DNA of 18,714 bases from a bacterium (GTDB taxonomy: Bacteria > T1Sed10-126), in assembly GCA_003557545.1 (NCBI GenBank), contig PWOD01000013.1, forward strand, positions 1-18,714. Reading direction: 5' to 3'. The notes under the pieces are model-generated. The model had not been told where the DNA came from and searched no databases. It saw only the letters and a list, made by a program, of their open reading frames with translations. Each line of letters opens with the position of its first letter. Positions within the stretch are counted from its first letter, which is position 1. This document shows, piece after piece, positions 13,305 through 18,416 of the stretch. The translations under genes were made by a program, and so were the position numbers.

Positions 13305-13333
13305 TTGAAAAAATCGTCTGGATGCCGGACAAT
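13305..13333 (+). promoter_or_regulatory. Candidate promoter for the gpgS cluster
   Basis: TTGAAA (13305-13310), a 17-base spacer and GACAAT (13328-13333) resemble a sigma-A promoter, with 5/6 and 4/6 matches. It lies between the candidate terminator and the GTG at 13384. A perfect TTGACA at 13356-13361 is also present but sits too close to the start codon to serve gpgS. Confidence 0.4.
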
Positions 13334-13383: not shown

Positions 13384-14358
13384 GTGAATTTAGAGGCCTG
13401 GTTGAAAAAAAATAGTTATCATCATTCCCGTTACCAGGATATTGAGCGGTTGGTTGAACTCAAGCAAGAAAAATCTCAGAAGATCGCCCTCAGTCTGCCC
13501 ACACTTAATGAAGAGGAAACGATTGCTAAAGAGATAATTTTGATCCAGACAGAGCTGATGATCAGACATCAGCTGATAGATGAGATTGCGGTGGTTGATA
13601 GTGGTTCTGAGGATCAAACCCGTGAAATTGCTCGAAAATATGGGGCTACGGTCTATGAGGCCAGTGATTATTTAAAAGAAGAGGGGGTATATCAGGGAAA
13701 AGGGGAGAATCTCTGGAAAAGTCTTTATCTGCTCGATGGAGATATTATTATCTATCTTGATGCTGACATTAAAAATATCGATCCTAAATTTGTTTATGGG
13801 CTGGTGGGTCCACTGCTGGAGCGGGATGAGATCAGCTATGTTAAAGGGTTTTATGAACGACCGTTAAAGTTTGGTCAGGAGATGCGTCGGGGGGGAGGAG
13901 GTCGTGTAACAGAGATTCTTGTGCGTCCTCTGTTCAACCTCTTTTTTCCACAACTGGCCGGGATGATTCAGCCCCTGTCTGGTGAATATGCCGGTCGACG
14001 TGAACTGCTGGAAAAACTTCCTTTTTTTATTGGTTACGGTGTAGAAACAGGTCTGTTAATTGATATTAGTGAGCAGTTTGGAATTGAAACAATAGCCCAG
14101 GTTGATCTGGACAGGCGGGTTCATGAGAACCAGGATCTGCATTCGCTGGGAAAGATGGCGTTTGGTATTTTGCAGACCTTTTTTAGTCGGGTTGATGCCT
14201 TTGATAAACTCCAGCTCAAACAGGAGCTTCAGGGAATATACAGTAGTATTTTGACGGCCGGCGATCAATACCGTATGCAGCAGGAAGAACTGACCGAGAT
14301 TGAACGACCACCGATGATTGAGCTTGAACAATACTGTCAAAAACATGTAAGAGAGTAG
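13384..14358 (+). CDS. gpgS: Glucosyl-3-phosphoglycerate synthase (GT81 family)
   Basis: GpgS transfers glucose from an NDP-glucose to 3-phosphoglycerate, giving glucosyl-3-phosphoglycerate. This is the first step to the compatible solute glucosylglycerate. The 324-residue protein has the GT-A layout of the family: KIALSLPTLNEEETIAKEI (33-51), VVDSGSEDQTREIARKYGA (70-88), the metal/nucleotide motif YLDADIKNIDP (D126, D128), the acceptor-side block QPLSGEYAGRRELLEKLPF (196-214), GYGVETGLLIDI (217-228) and RVHENQDLHSLGKMAFGIL with the conserved His at 247. The length is right for bacterial GpgS. The start is GTG at 13384, set by GGAGGTG. It has its own candidate promoter and leads a four-gene set with a phosphatase, a second glycosyltransferase and a nucleotidyltransferase, which supports a solute pathway. 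A mannosyl-3-phosphoglycerate synthase is less likely. Confidence 0.88.
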   Translation: MNLEAWLKKNSYHHSRYQDIERLVELKQEKSQKIALSLPTLNEEETIAKEIILIQTELMIRHQLIDEIAVVDSGSEDQTREIARKYGATVYEASDYLKEEGVYQGKGENLWKSLYLLDGDIIIYLDADIKNIDPKFVYGLVGPLLERDEISYVKGFYERPLKFGQEMRRGGGGRVTEILVRPLFNLFFPQLAGMIQPLSGEYAGRRELLEKLPFFIGYGVETGLLIDISEQFGIETIAQVDLDRRVHENQDLHSLGKMAFGILQTFFSRVDAFDKLQLKQELQGIYSSILTAGDQYRMQQEELTEIERPPMIELEQYCQKHVRE

Positions 14359-14367
14359 TTATATCGG

Positions 14368-14922
14368 GTGGAGGTTATTCTGATACGGCATGGTCAAACC
14401 TTCTGGAATCAGCGTGGTTTGATCCAGGGTAATATAGATGTAGGACTTAATCAGCATGGGGAACAGCAGGCTCGGAATGTCGGCCGGACTCTTCCTCAAA
14501 ATCAGGCTTATGATCTGGCTGTCAGCCCTCTGCGGCGTGCCTGGCAGACAGCTGAAATATTGCGGGAACTGATAACCGTGAAAAACTATTGGATAGAAGA
14601 ACAATTAAGAGAGTTTGATCAGGGATACTGGAATGGTCTGCCCGGCGAGCGAGTGAAGGAGTCACTTGATTCCCAGCTTTATCGTGACTGGCAGGCTGAT
14701 CCAATCGAACTTTCCCCACCCAACGGGGAAACCTTCAAACAGGTTGAACAGAGGGTCAGTCGGGCTCTGGAGCTTATTCTGGAGAAAACGGAGCATCCTC
14801 TGATTATTGTTGGTCATAAGGTGATAAACAGTGTTATAGCTGCGCTGGCTGGTTGCTGGCCGTTGGAACAGGTTCTGGATAGATTACCCGAGAATGCGGG
14901 ACTGGTTCGGGTAGAGTTTTAA
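14368..14922 (+). CDS. Histidine phosphatase superfamily protein, probable glucosyl-3-phosphoglycerate phosphatase
   Basis: This 184-residue protein is of the phosphoglycerate-mutase-like histidine phosphatase class. The nucleophile motif is RHG (residues 7-9, LIRHGQTFWNQRGLIQG), and SPLRRAWQTAEIL (53-65) is the usual second block. REFDQGYWNGLPGE (81-94) contains the general-acid Glu, and the second catalytic His is H150 in LIIVGHKVINSVIAAL. That motif is usually GHG, so the Lys after it is unusual. The gene lies 9 bases after gpgS. In mycobacteria, GpgP, which removes the phosphate of glucosyl-3-phosphoglycerate, belongs to this same superfamily, so this is the natural candidate for step two. 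The superfamily is broad (cobalamin, sugar and nucleotide phosphatases), so function rests on context. The GTG start has only a weak ribosome binding site. Confidence 0.8.
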   Translation: MEVILIRHGQTFWNQRGLIQGNIDVGLNQHGEQQARNVGRTLPQNQAYDLAVSPLRRAWQTAEILRELITVKNYWIEEQLREFDQGYWNGLPGERVKESLDSQLYRDWQADPIELSPPNGETFKQVEQRVSRALELILEKTEHPLIIVGHKVINSVIAALAGCWPLEQVLDRLPENAGLVRVEF

Positions 14923-14939
14923 TAAAGCAGGTGTAAATT

Positions 14940-16184
14940 ATGGAGGAACAACCGCTCAAGAATATGACTGTTGGGCTGTTACATTATAGCTGTCCCCCGG
15001 TGATTGGTGGGACCGAGTTTATCCTGGAAGCACATGCCCGCTGGCTGCATAAATATGGAGCAGAAGTTCGTGTTGTGGTGGGTAAAGGGGAACAGTTCGC
15101 GCCGGAAATTCCGGTGCTTGAAGTTCCTGAATTTGCCTCTGATTACAGCCAGAAAAAACAGATCATGAAAGCTCTCTCAAAGGGTGATTTGAATAGTTTT
15201 GAAAGGCAAAAACAGCACTGTATAGAACGATTAACTGAGCTGTTTGACGGTTGCCATAAGGTGCTGGTCCACAATCTCTTTACCATGCCCTTCAATCTCC
15301 CGTTAACTGCAGCACTGGTAGAGCTGGCAGAAACAGCAGAGTTTGAAATTGTCCCCTGGACCCATGATATTGCCTGGTTAGATGAGAAGTATGATACACC
15401 GGATGAATATCCCTGGAATCTCCTCGGCCAACCGGCCGGCGTGGAAAATTACGTGGCAATATCAGGTCTTCGCAAACGGCAGCTGGCGGAGCTTTTTGGT
15501 GAACAGGTAAATATCACAGTAATTCATGATGGTATAGAGTTCGACGAGTTTCATGAACTGGATCCTGAGATTCAGAACATTTATCGAAAAAATCAGATGT
15601 ATTATGATGATCTTCTGGCACTTTATCCAGCCCGCATTGTTCAACGTAAAAATTTTGAACTTGCACTGGAAATTATTTACCATCTGAAAAAATTAGGCTA
15701 CACCCTGCATTTTATTATTACCGGCCCTCCTGATCCCCATAATCCTGAATCTTTGGAATATTTTGAGTCGCTTAAAAGTCTGAGAAATGATCTGGATCTG
15801 GAAGATGAGGTAATATTTTGTTATGACTTAAAAAGTCAAAAAACCGGCGAACCTTTAAAAATAAGTTATAACAGGATGCGGCAGTTTTACCGGCTCAGTG
15901 ATCTGCTGCTCTTTACCAGCAAACAGGAGGGTTTCGGTTTGCCCCTGCTGGAGGCCGGTTTGAGTCGCACGTTGATCTGCTGTTCTGATATTGAGCCACT
16001 GCCCGAGGTTGGTGGCGAAGCCCCCTTTTATTTTAATCCCAATGAACACCCGTCGATAATTGCTTATCAGATACGTGAGGAAATTGAGTCGCAGGCTGCA
16101 ACTTTATTGCAGCGTAGGGTGAGAAAAAATTTCACCTGGCCGGCGATTTTCGAACAGTATATAATTCCTTTTTTAACCGATTGA
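14940..16184 (+). CDS. GT-B glycosyltransferase, candidate second sugar transferase of the solute pathway
   Basis: This is a GT4-like retaining glycosyltransferase of 414 residues. The N-terminal Rossmann domain opens with TVGLLHYSCPPVIGGTEFILEAHARWL, a Gly-rich acceptor loop (GGTE, 23-26). It also holds HNLFTMPFNLPLTAALVELA (111-130) and PWTHDIAWLDEKY (139-151). The donor domain carries YPARIVQRKNFELAL (R/K phosphate contacts) and the E-x7-E motif QEGFGLPLLEAG (E330, E338). It lies 17 bases after the phosphatase. In MGG-producing bacteria a GT-B enzyme (MggA or MggS type) adds mannose from GDP-mannose to the glucosyl-(phospho)glycerate. I infer a similar role, but donor and acceptor cannot be read from sequence. 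No signal peptide or membrane helix is visible, so it is cytosolic. Confidence 0.8.
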   Translation: MEEQPLKNMTVGLLHYSCPPVIGGTEFILEAHARWLHKYGAEVRVVVGKGEQFAPEIPVLEVPEFASDYSQKKQIMKALSKGDLNSFERQKQHCIERLTELFDGCHKVLVHNLFTMPFNLPLTAALVELAETAEFEIVPWTHDIAWLDEKYDTPDEYPWNLLGQPAGVENYVAISGLRKRQLAELFGEQVNITVIHDGIEFDEFHELDPEIQNIYRKNQMYYDDLLALYPARIVQRKNFELALEIIYHLKKLGYTLHFIITGPPDPHNPESLEYFESLKSLRNDLDLEDEVIFCYDLKSQKTGEPLKISYNRMRQFYRLSDLLLFTSKQEGFGLPLLEAGLSRTLICCSDIEPLPEVGGEAPFYFNPNEHPSIIAYQIREEIESQAATLLQRRVRKNFTWPAIFEQYIIPFLTD

Positions 16185-16230
16185 ACAGTCCGAACAAAGC
16201 GGTCTGGTAGTTGAGTTTAGAAATCTTTCC

Positions 16231-16237
16231 AGGAGGG
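16231..16237 (+). promoter_or_regulatory. Strong ribosome binding site before the nucleotidyltransferase
   Basis: AGGAGGG sits 8 bases before the ATG at 16246. The 61-base gap upstream shows no terminator, so read-through from the glycosyltransferase gene is likely. Confidence 0.65.
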
Positions 16238-16245
16238 TTGATAGA

Positions 16246-16989
16246 ATGAAAGCACTGTTATTAGCAGCCGGTTATGCGACAAGATTATATCCTCTGACTG
16301 AGGATACTCCTAAACCGTTACTGGAGGTCGGAGACCGACCGATAGTTGATTACATAGTTGAAAAATTGGAACAGCTCGGGATGGTTGATGAGGTGCTGGT
16401 CATTACTAACGATAAGTTTTATAAAAATTTTTCTGATTGGTCTGACAGTCATGATAGTCCCCTTAAGATCCGTGTAATCAATGACGGAACTACCCAGGAT
16501 GGAACCAGGCTGGGGGCTATAGGTGATATAAAGTTTGCTGTGGACGCTGCCTCTGTAGAGGATGATCTGCTGGTGCTGGCGGGAGACAATCTGTTTGATT
16601 TTGATCTGGGGGAGATGGTGGCAGAGTTTGATAAAAAGGCTGAAAATATGATCGGGGTTCTGGAGTTTGAAGATGAAAGTAAACTGTCGAAATATGGAAT
16701 CGTTGAGGTGGATCAAAATAACCGGCTGGTTGATTTTATGGAGAAACCGGAAAATCCACCAACTAATCTTGTAGCCATGGGGATCTATCTCTTTCCAGGC
16801 GACAATTTAGGACTTCTGGATGATTATTTAGAGTCCGGAGGGAATCCGGATGAACCGGGTTGGTATGTTACCTGGCTGGTAGAAAATCATCGGGTCTATG
16901 CCTATCCCTTTGAGGGCCTCTGGTTTGATATCGGGGATAAGGATTCGCTAAATAAAGCTGATCGATACTTACAGAGTAACAGCCTGTAG
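16246..16989 (+). CDS. Sugar-phosphate nucleotidyltransferase (RmlA/GlmU-like)
   Basis: This enzyme activates a sugar-1-phosphate with an NTP to give an NDP-sugar and pyrophosphate. The signature is MKALLLAAGYATRLYPLTEDTPKPLLEV, with R13 and K23 expected to contact phosphates. LVLAGDNLFDFDL (109-121) provides the metal-binding Asp (D114). YGIVEVDQNNRLVDFMEKP (150-168) and GLWFDIGDKDSLNKAD (224-239) complete the fold. At 247 residues it is a compact single-domain form without the left-handed-helix extension of GlmU. The base and sugar cannot be told from sequence. Lying just after gpgS, a phosphatase and a glycosyltransferase, it plausibly makes the NDP-glucose or GDP-mannose that those enzymes consume. 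A surface-polysaccharide role is the main alternative. Confidence 0.83.
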   Translation: MKALLLAAGYATRLYPLTEDTPKPLLEVGDRPIVDYIVEKLEQLGMVDEVLVITNDKFYKNFSDWSDSHDSPLKIRVINDGTTQDGTRLGAIGDIKFAVDAASVEDDLLVLAGDNLFDFDLGEMVAEFDKKAENMIGVLEFEDESKLSKYGIVEVDQNNRLVDFMEKPENPPTNLVAMGIYLFPGDNLGLLDDYLESGGNPDEPGWYVTWLVENHRVYAYPFEGLWFDIGDKDSLNKADRYLQSNSL

Positions 16990-17078
16990 AGCTGACAACT
17001 CCACTTTTTTCATCTGGTCAACTCTCTTTTGAAAAACCTTTTAACCCCGGGGCTATGGCGTTGATCAGCCTTTCACTA

Positions 17079-17084
17079 TATAAT
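17079..17084 (+). promoter_or_regulatory. Consensus -10 element, likely ahcY promoter
   Basis: A perfect TATAAT lies 66 bases before the ahcY ATG. No good -35 lies 16-18 bases upstream. TTGATC at 17061-17066 is only 12 bases away but would be spaced 17 from an overlapping TAATAG. The 161-base gap also holds a CCCCGGGG palindrome (17045-17052) but no riboswitch-like or terminator-like structure that I can see. Confidence 0.4.
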
Positions 17085-17150
17085 AATAGGCCGTTTAATT
17101 CTTATGAGTTTTTATAGGTAGATTAATTTATATTATTGGAGTGAGTTTTT

Positions 17151-18416
17151 ATGAGTTCCATCAAAGCAGATATAGCAAATCCCGCTCTTGCTGATGAGGG
17201 TGAAAAAAATATTCTCTGGGCTGATCGTTCAATGGAAGTTCTCCAGGGAATCCGGGAGAGATTCAGTCAGGAAAAACCACTGGAGGGTGTGAAACTTTCT
17301 GCCTGCTTGCATGTTACCACCGAGACGGCAAATCTAATGAGAACCTTGAAAGCCGGTGGTGCCGATGTTGTGCTCTGTGCCTCCAATCCCCTTTCTACCA
17401 AGGATGATGTGGCTGCGGCGCTGGTTGAAAAATATGATATTCCTGTTTTTGCTATCCATGGTGAGGATCGAGATAGTTATTATTCACATATCGAAGCGGC
17501 AGTGGAACATGCTCCACAGATCACAATGGATGACGGAGCTGACCTGGTAAGCACTATTCTCAAGAGTTACCCGGAACTTGCAAGCCAGCTTATTGGTAGT
17601 ACTGAGGAGACGACCACCGGGGTGATAAGGTTGCGTGCCATGGCCAACAATAATGTTTTACAGTTTCCTGTCATTGCAGTTAACGATGCCCGGACCAAAC
17701 ATATGTTTGACAATCGTTACGGTACAGGTCAGAGCACGATCGATGGGATTTTAAGGGCGACTAATATATTATTGGCCGGCCGTCAATTTGTTGTTGCCGG
17801 CTTCGGCTGGTGCAGCCAGGGAATTGCCATGCGAGCCCAGGGTATGGGGGCAAATGTAACTGTCTGTGAGGTTGACCCCTTAAGAGCATTAGAGGCCCAC
17901 ATGAGTGGTTTTGATGTGGTACCGATGGCCGAAGCGGCTAAAACAGGTGATGTTTTTGTCACTTCCACCGGTGATATATCGGTGATTAGAAAAGAACATT
18001 TTGAACAGATGAAAGATGGTGCAATAGTTGCTAATTCCGGCCATTTTAACGTAGAATTGGATCTGGAAGATCTTGCTGAAATGGCGGTTGAAAAGAACCA
18101 GATAAAACCGAATCTTGAGGAATACTGTCTGGCCGATGGTCGGTCGATATTTGTTCTGGCAGAAGGACGGCTGGTAAACCTTGCGGCGGCTGAAGGACAT
18201 CCGGCCGAGGTTATGGATATGTCTTTTGCCAATCAGGCTCTTTCCGCAGAATATCTGGCTAAAGCTGCTGCCGATCTTGAGCATGATGTCTATCCGGTCC
18301 CCCGGGAGATAGATGAGAGAATTGCCAGATTACGGCTGCAGGCCAGTAATGTAGAGATTGATCGGTTAACTGCGAAACAGTTGGAATATCTTGAATCATG
18401 GCAGATGGGTACCTGA
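17151..18416 (+). CDS. ahcY: S-adenosylhomocysteine hydrolase, short archaeal/Thermotoga type
   Basis: AhcY reversibly splits SAH to adenosine and homocysteine with tightly bound NAD, removing the inhibitory product of SAM methyltransferases such as Pcm. Visible landmarks are [12 protein letters not shown] (His54), [16 protein letters not shown] (76-91), [10 protein letters not shown] (152-161), [19 protein letters not shown] (177-195, with Lys183 and Asp187), the NAD loop [20 protein letters not shown] (215-234), GHFNVELD (297-304) and [18 protein letters not shown] (345-362). At 421 residues it lacks the C-terminal Lys/Tyr NAD-capping tail of the eukaryotic and many proteobacterial forms. 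The 'NRYGTGQS' segment is also typical of the short class. In some lineages short-class relatives prefer S-inosylhomocysteine, so the substrate is not certain. GGAG precedes the ATG by 9 bases. Confidence 0.92.

Follow-up and report, generated by a model that had tools for sequence, protein, structure and literature searches.

The question raised by this locus is whether four adjacent bacterial genes form a self-contained pathway for a compatible solute of the glucosylglycerate type, and which of them belong to it. The window, i.e. the whole stretch of DNA that was analysed, is 18,714 nucleotides long. The reading favoured here, at a probability of roughly two in three, is that three of the four genes are a compact operon making an intracellular sugar-glycerate solute, in which glucosylglycerate would be formed first and then extended by one or two more hexoses. 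The features on which the analysis is based are the following.

13305..13333, plus strand: weak sigma-70-like promoter match 5' of gpgS (9/12 matches, chance level)
13384..14358, plus strand: gpgS, GT81 glucosyl-3-phosphoglycerate synthase, 324 aa, GTG start (NF010496, 383.6 bits, cut-off 262)
14368..14922, plus strand: histidine phosphatase of branch 1, proposed to be GpgP-type, 184 aa, GTG start (PF00300, 141.6 bits)
14940..16184, plus strand: GT-B glycosyltransferase of GT4 type, family unnamed, proposed sugar-glycerate extender, 414 aa (PF00534, 55.1 bits)
16246..16989, plus strand: sugar-1-phosphate nucleotidyltransferase, 247 aa, assigned to a metK/ahcY-linked module (PF00483, 141.6 bits)
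17151..18416, plus strand: ahcY, adenosylhomocysteinase, marker neighbour of the nucleotidyltransferase module (TIGR00936, 628.9 bits, cut-off 497.6)

The four open reading frames that the sequence-only reading had placed at 13384-16989 are present there, head to tail on the plus strand, with gaps of 9, 17 and 61 bp, and ahcY starts 161 bp past the nucleotidyltransferase. The promoter that had been assigned to gpgS was not borne out: its 9/12 match is no better than those in shuffled sequence (10 such sites in the region, where shuffling gives 7.3 +/- 2.4), and the DNA upstream of gpgS has no visible conservation in the genome of a sister genus (G001). The four genes and ahcY have the same order in G001, with identities of 81, 54, 70, 66 and 85%, respectively.

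The first three genes also occur together elsewhere, in phyla unrelated to that of the host. Outside the host phylum the order GpgS, phosphatase, GT-B was found in two genomes of family f94 (G094 and G362) and in one of family f231 (G311), which brings the identical order to five genomes in three families. The order, described earlier as unrecognised, is therefore not unique and recurs in other families. Four Chloroflexota MAGs (L078, L080, L086, L088) have a different order, namely the GT-B, a fusion of a Usp domain to GpgS (the presence of the Usp domain was checked in L080) and the phosphatase; a glycosyltransferase resembling mannosylglucosylglycerate (MGG) synthase is added to the cluster in L078, L080 and L088, and an MGH1-like glycoside hydrolase in L080 and L088. 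Family f72 encodes GpgS and a histidine phosphatase as one fused protein. Immediately upstream of the cassette, f94 has genes for a ManC-type GDP-mannose pyrophosphorylase, a phosphohexomutase and another GpgS-related glycosyltransferase. The open-access papers searched do not describe such a cluster, although this is not proof of its absence from the literature.

Co-occurrence was counted in a sample of 386 genomes, using E-value cut-offs of 1e-50 for GpgS, 1e-35 for the GT-B and 1e-30 for MggS-like proteins, which were found in 35, 20 and 28 genomes, respectively. GpgS and the GT-B occur together in 13 genomes against 1.8 expected (Fisher p 1.4e-10), and the GT-B and MggS-like proteins in 10 against 1.5 expected (p 8.6e-8); both p-values count related genomes as independent and are inflated by relatedness. 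After collapsing to families, GpgS and the GT-B are common to 8 families, with 15 families carrying the GT-B and 23 carrying GpgS. The GT-B gene adjoins a GpgS or MggS-like gene in 12 of its 20 genomes (GpgS in seven, MggS-like in five). At the GpgS cut-off of E 1e-50, the GT-B is accompanied by an MggS-like gene but not by GpgS in four genomes, and by neither in three. The grouping of the trio, taken over the five-genome order, the f72 fusion and the co-occurrence at p about 1e-10, is far beyond chance. Judging from these gene comparisons, the trio of the window is a real, conserved three-gene unit of predicted sugar-glycerate function.

In the proposed pathway GpgS would join glucose from an NDP-glucose to 3-phosphoglycerate, the histidine phosphatase would strip the phosphate to give glucosylglycerate, and the GT4-type GT-B enzyme would add a hexose to glucosylglycerate, or to the phosphorylated precursor before dephosphorylation. 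Family and active-site residues point to the first step, conserved adjacency and the GpgS fusion in f72 to the second, and gene order, co-occurrence and fold to the third. We infer both co-transcription of the trio and an osmotic role; the donor and acceptor of the GT-B are guesses. The earlier proposal that glucosylglycerate is made and then extended is consistent with the adjacency, the fusion and the linkage of the GT-B.

The residues of the branch 1 catalytic set (R-H, R, E, H) correspond to R7, H8, R57, E82 and H150 of the phosphatase and are invariant in ten homologues of the cassette protein. The phosphatase had been called mycobacterial-type; the superfamily is indeed shared, but against a profile built from the cassette phosphatases a PspA-type phosphoserine phosphatase (186 bits) and a PhoE-type phosphatase (158 bits) both outscore mycobacterial GpgP (133 bits). 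Its gene adjoins gpgS in the window, G001, f94, f231 and the Chloroflexota, and a GpgP role is proposed from this linkage together with the f72 fusion.

It is unlikely, yet deserves serious weight, that the GT-B uses glucosyl-3-phosphoglycerate as its acceptor, ahead of the phosphatase, as is reportedly the case in the phosphorylating route of Petrotoga to mannosylglucosylglycerate, the phosphatase then being in reality a disaccharide-phosphoglycerate phosphatase. The gene order synthase, phosphatase, glycosyltransferase is compatible with either order of action, and the same logic is seen in locus L084, where the GT-B gene lies between a GT20 synthase gene and a trehalose-phosphatase-type gene. 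Two alternative pathways are reported for Petrotoga in the title of a paper (Fernandes 2010) that PMC3694870 cites. The GpgS-phosphatase fusions of f72 (L073 included), however, have no adjoining GT-B of the window family, and there direct dephosphorylation is favoured.

At the family level the GT81 gene is GpgS, as had been claimed: its product passes the curated NCBIfam model NF010496 with 383.6 bits and retains the active-site residues of Mt GpgS. All of E54, S81, K114, D134, D136, T187, L209, Y229, E232, H258 and M269 are kept, and the DXD motif, the K114-E232-D134 network, T187, H258 and the residues of the donor pocket are conserved; among the residues named for UDP, Mg, donor and 3-PGA in Mt GpgS, the exceptions are R101, which is A in the window protein, and the main-chain contact A51, which is T. 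In a tree of 38 sequences the window protein groups with the GpgS of G032, G206, G094 and G362 with a support of 93/83, just short of the support line of the tool (95/80).

The pass of NF010496 was dropped as proof of a glucose donor: a fragment of the mannose-type Rubrobacter enzyme (Rx MpgS), used as control, also passes with 353 bits, and the donor is therefore not readable from this model. That the window enzyme is itself a mannosyl-3-phosphoglycerate synthase, with a product based on mannosylglycerate, nevertheless appears improbable. This reading draws on the passing control and on the solved chain that is closest by score, Rubrobacter MpgS 3f1y (219 bits); mycobacterial GpgS is also among the closest solved chains. 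Against it, at seven positions (L52, E54, S81, S210, Y213, G230 and H258) the window protein agrees with Mt GpgS and not with Rx MpgS, which favours glucose as donor. In its active-site residues the window enzyme matches the glucose-type enzymes over the one mannose-type enzyme compared.

The GT-B enzyme had been likened to the MGG synthase of Petrotoga. This identity was rejected, with 49.2 bits against the MGG synthase model NF041101, for which the cut-off is 640. Full-length members of the GT-B family score about 370-660 bits with their own HMM and 36-90 with the MggS-like HMM, and MggS-like proteins show the reverse; by HMM scores the window GT-B belongs to a family separate from MggS. An AlphaFold2 model (pLDDT 94.2) predicts two Rossmann domains and a GT4-type GT-B fold, and the two glutamates of the E-x7-E motif (E330 and E338) are invariant in 25 homologues. 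The top Foldseek matches of the model are BshA, MshA, glycogen synthase, sucrose-phosphate synthase and TreT; with VIA-align, many GT4 enzymes lie within one Z unit. The GT-B sequence on its own found no match in the PDB, the profile and fold searches gave general GT4 matches only, and no member of the family with a known function was found. The model supports a soluble GT4 enzyme, and the fold matches support nothing finer. In L084 and L087 the GT-B gene adjoins trehalose-phosphate synthase or phosphatase-type genes, so that in some genomes the acceptor may be something other than a sugar glycerate; the synthase and phosphatase neighbours in L084 suggest that the family may extend small glycosides in general.

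The mycobacterial methylglucose lipopolysaccharide is begun by GpgS and GpgP, after which a second glucose is added (PMC4555173). There is a small chance that the trio likewise makes a polysaccharide primer, such as the glucosylglycerate and diglucosylglycerate of that lipopolysaccharide, and not a free osmolyte; the GT-B could then be a diglucosylglycerate synthase. Beside the trio, however, neither the window nor the compared clusters hold a recognised methyltransferase, acyltransferase or branching enzyme; what is seen instead are enzymes resembling MGH1 and sucrose phosphorylase, and domains of the Usp or PTS EIIA type.

The fourth gene follows another neighbourhood, one of methionine-cycle genes. 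Close homologues of the nucleotidyltransferase were found in 23 other genomes among 372, G001 included, and metK and/or ahcY lies within 1.5 kb of the homologue in 13 of the 18 loci outside the host phylum that were retrieved with flanks. In G094, G206 and G362, all of them with the osmolyte genes, the nucleotidyltransferase is on a separate contig beside metK/ahcY. There is only a slim likelihood that the four genes are a self-contained unit with the nucleotidyltransferase as supplier of the sugar donor: the spacing of 61 bp in the window and the conserved order in G001 speak for it, but the gap to the GT-B gene is 200 bp in G001, and the gene is unlinked to the cassette in the three genomes just named. 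Since the gene travels with metK/ahcY, and ahcY is the next gene in the window, the notion of donor supply within one unit fails, and the nucleotidyltransferase was ruled out as donor supply for the cassette. It is judged, from gene neighbourhoods, to be the probable start of a second, ahcY-linked module separate from the osmolyte cassette. Of the four-gene unit in the sequence-only reading, genes 1-3 stood as a conserved group; the nucleotidyltransferase is kept with them only in G001 and is metK/ahcY-linked elsewhere.

It is very improbable that the GT-B and the nucleotidyltransferase belong to a surface-polysaccharide locus that adjoins gpgS by chance. Such loci often contain GT4 enzymes, and in one incomplete genome (G379, L262) the GT-B gene lies beside ORFs that look by eye like other glycosyltransferases. 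In 12 of 20 genomes, however, the GT-B gene has GpgS or MGG-synthase-like genes as neighbours, not surface-polysaccharide genes, and no polysaccharide export or polymerase genes were recognised by eye near it in the cassette loci.

The host had been tentatively connected with the Halanaerobiia. Its phylum comprises two genomes in the compared set, the host and G001, both of one family; a host placed in this two-genome phylum is not a member of the Halanaerobiia. The median protein pI, a rough measure from ORFs chosen by length, is 5.31 in the host (about 47 kb of DNA) and 4.86 in G001, whereas three genomes taken for comparison gave 8.3-9.2; the acidic proteins of the host fit a salt-adapted cell. 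No betaine transporter of the BCCT type, the only type searched for, was found in the host genome or in G001. In the search for ectoine synthase the control itself matched nowhere.

Elsewhere the host genome encodes an MggS-like glycosyltransferase (G000:C130), which with 240 bits over its full length against the NF041101 cut-off of 640 is a homologue only, and a homologue of the GDP-mannose pyrophosphorylase ManC (G000:C148). The former could add mannose from GDP-mannose supplied by the latter, so that the end product of the favoured three-gene pathway may be a di- or trisaccharide glycerate, e.g. mannosylglucosylglycerate or a further-extended form. A wider proposal is tentative and on balance rather doubtful: that the GT-B founds a new family of compatible-solute enzymes, that together with the MggS-like enzyme it makes an undescribed trisaccharide glycerate, and that the core is common to Chloroflexota and Cyanobacteriota as well as to several lineages that have been poorly sampled, the organisms named being a sample among the matches listed in the collection scan for relatives of the GT-B. 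If the sugar-glycerate reading of the trio is correct, osmolytes of this kind, known from few organisms, would extend to a number of lineages that are uncultured or little sampled, an unnamed GT4 family would gain a testable function, and GpgS would have a histidine-phosphatase partner outside the mycobacteria. The locus also shows an apparent donor-supply gene to be part of another conserved neighbourhood.

BshA and MshA, which are among the top fold matches of the window GT-B, are GT4 enzymes glycosylating small soluble acceptors (L-malate and inositol phosphate, respectively); the identity is only 15-18%, many GT4 enzymes tie, and no shared function is claimed. In the MGG pathway of Petrotoga (MggS, NF041101) a GT4-type enzyme follows glucosylglycerate, as proposed here; the window GT-B belongs by HMM scores to a different family from MggS, and the MggS-like homologue is encoded elsewhere in the host genome. 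Hydrolases related to mycobacterial GgH and MGH1 (PF22422; PMC6608630) were not detected in the host genome, whereas a PF22422 protein is encoded in the trio cluster of the Chloroflexota L080 and L088 and beside the Usp-GpgS gene in L246. Mycobacterial GpgS (Rv1208) is, like the window GpgS, a GT81 synthase with conserved residues for UDP, metal and 3-PGA, but it has R101 where the window protein has A (PMC4555173, PMC2581804). Mycobacterial GpgP (Rv2419c) and the window phosphatase both belong to the histidine phosphatase superfamily (PMC4555173, PMC2581804), within which they are not especially close. In mycobacteria gpgS and gpgP lie apart and prime methylglucose lipopolysaccharide, whereas in the window the synthase and phosphatase genes are adjacent and accompanied by a GT4 enzyme.

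GpgS was found fused to other domains in loci from other genomes (L-numbers; f-numbers are genome families), with universal stress protein domains at the N-terminus in two groups and a PTS EIIA-2 domain at the C-terminus in family f74. These fused domains suggest that stress or sugar signals control the synthase. In family f20, GpgS and a second, mannosylglycerate synthase-like glycosyltransferase domain form one protein of 734-768 aa; in the L072 protein, the one tested, the second domain scored 26.5 bits against PF21969, just below the cut-off.

L065 9775-11607; L080 5515-7353: GpgS with N-terminal universal stress protein domains
L069 8481-10004 (f74): GpgS with C-terminal PTS EIIA-2 domain
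L072 9437-11641; L210; L212 (f20): two-domain GpgS protein

The short NTP_transferase gene is linked to metK and/or ahcY (within 1.5 kb) in 13 of 18 genomes outside the phylum of the window genome, spread over many families. Why these genes should be linked is something for which we are aware of no account. Apparent sugar-phosphate isomerase (SIS) and PTS enzyme I genes, assigned by eye, lie upstream in some of these loci.

Window 16246-18416; L266-L276, L279, L283, L289-L296: NTP_transferase with metK/ahcY

A second GpgS cluster type (L239, L240, L241, L242) comprises an unnamed protein of ~400 aa, GpgS, an unnamed protein of ~500 aa and an MggS-like glycosyltransferase, with a HAD-type hydrolase also present in L239 and a sucrose-phosphorylase-like gene adjoining MggS in L242. 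In Chloroflexota MAGs (L084, L087), members of the window's GT-B family adjoin genes of the GT20 trehalose-phosphate-synthase type, the trehalose-phosphatase type or both.

L084 4481-8066: GT-B family with trehalose-type neighbours
L087 2-1362: the same, trehalose-phosphatase-type gene assigned by eye
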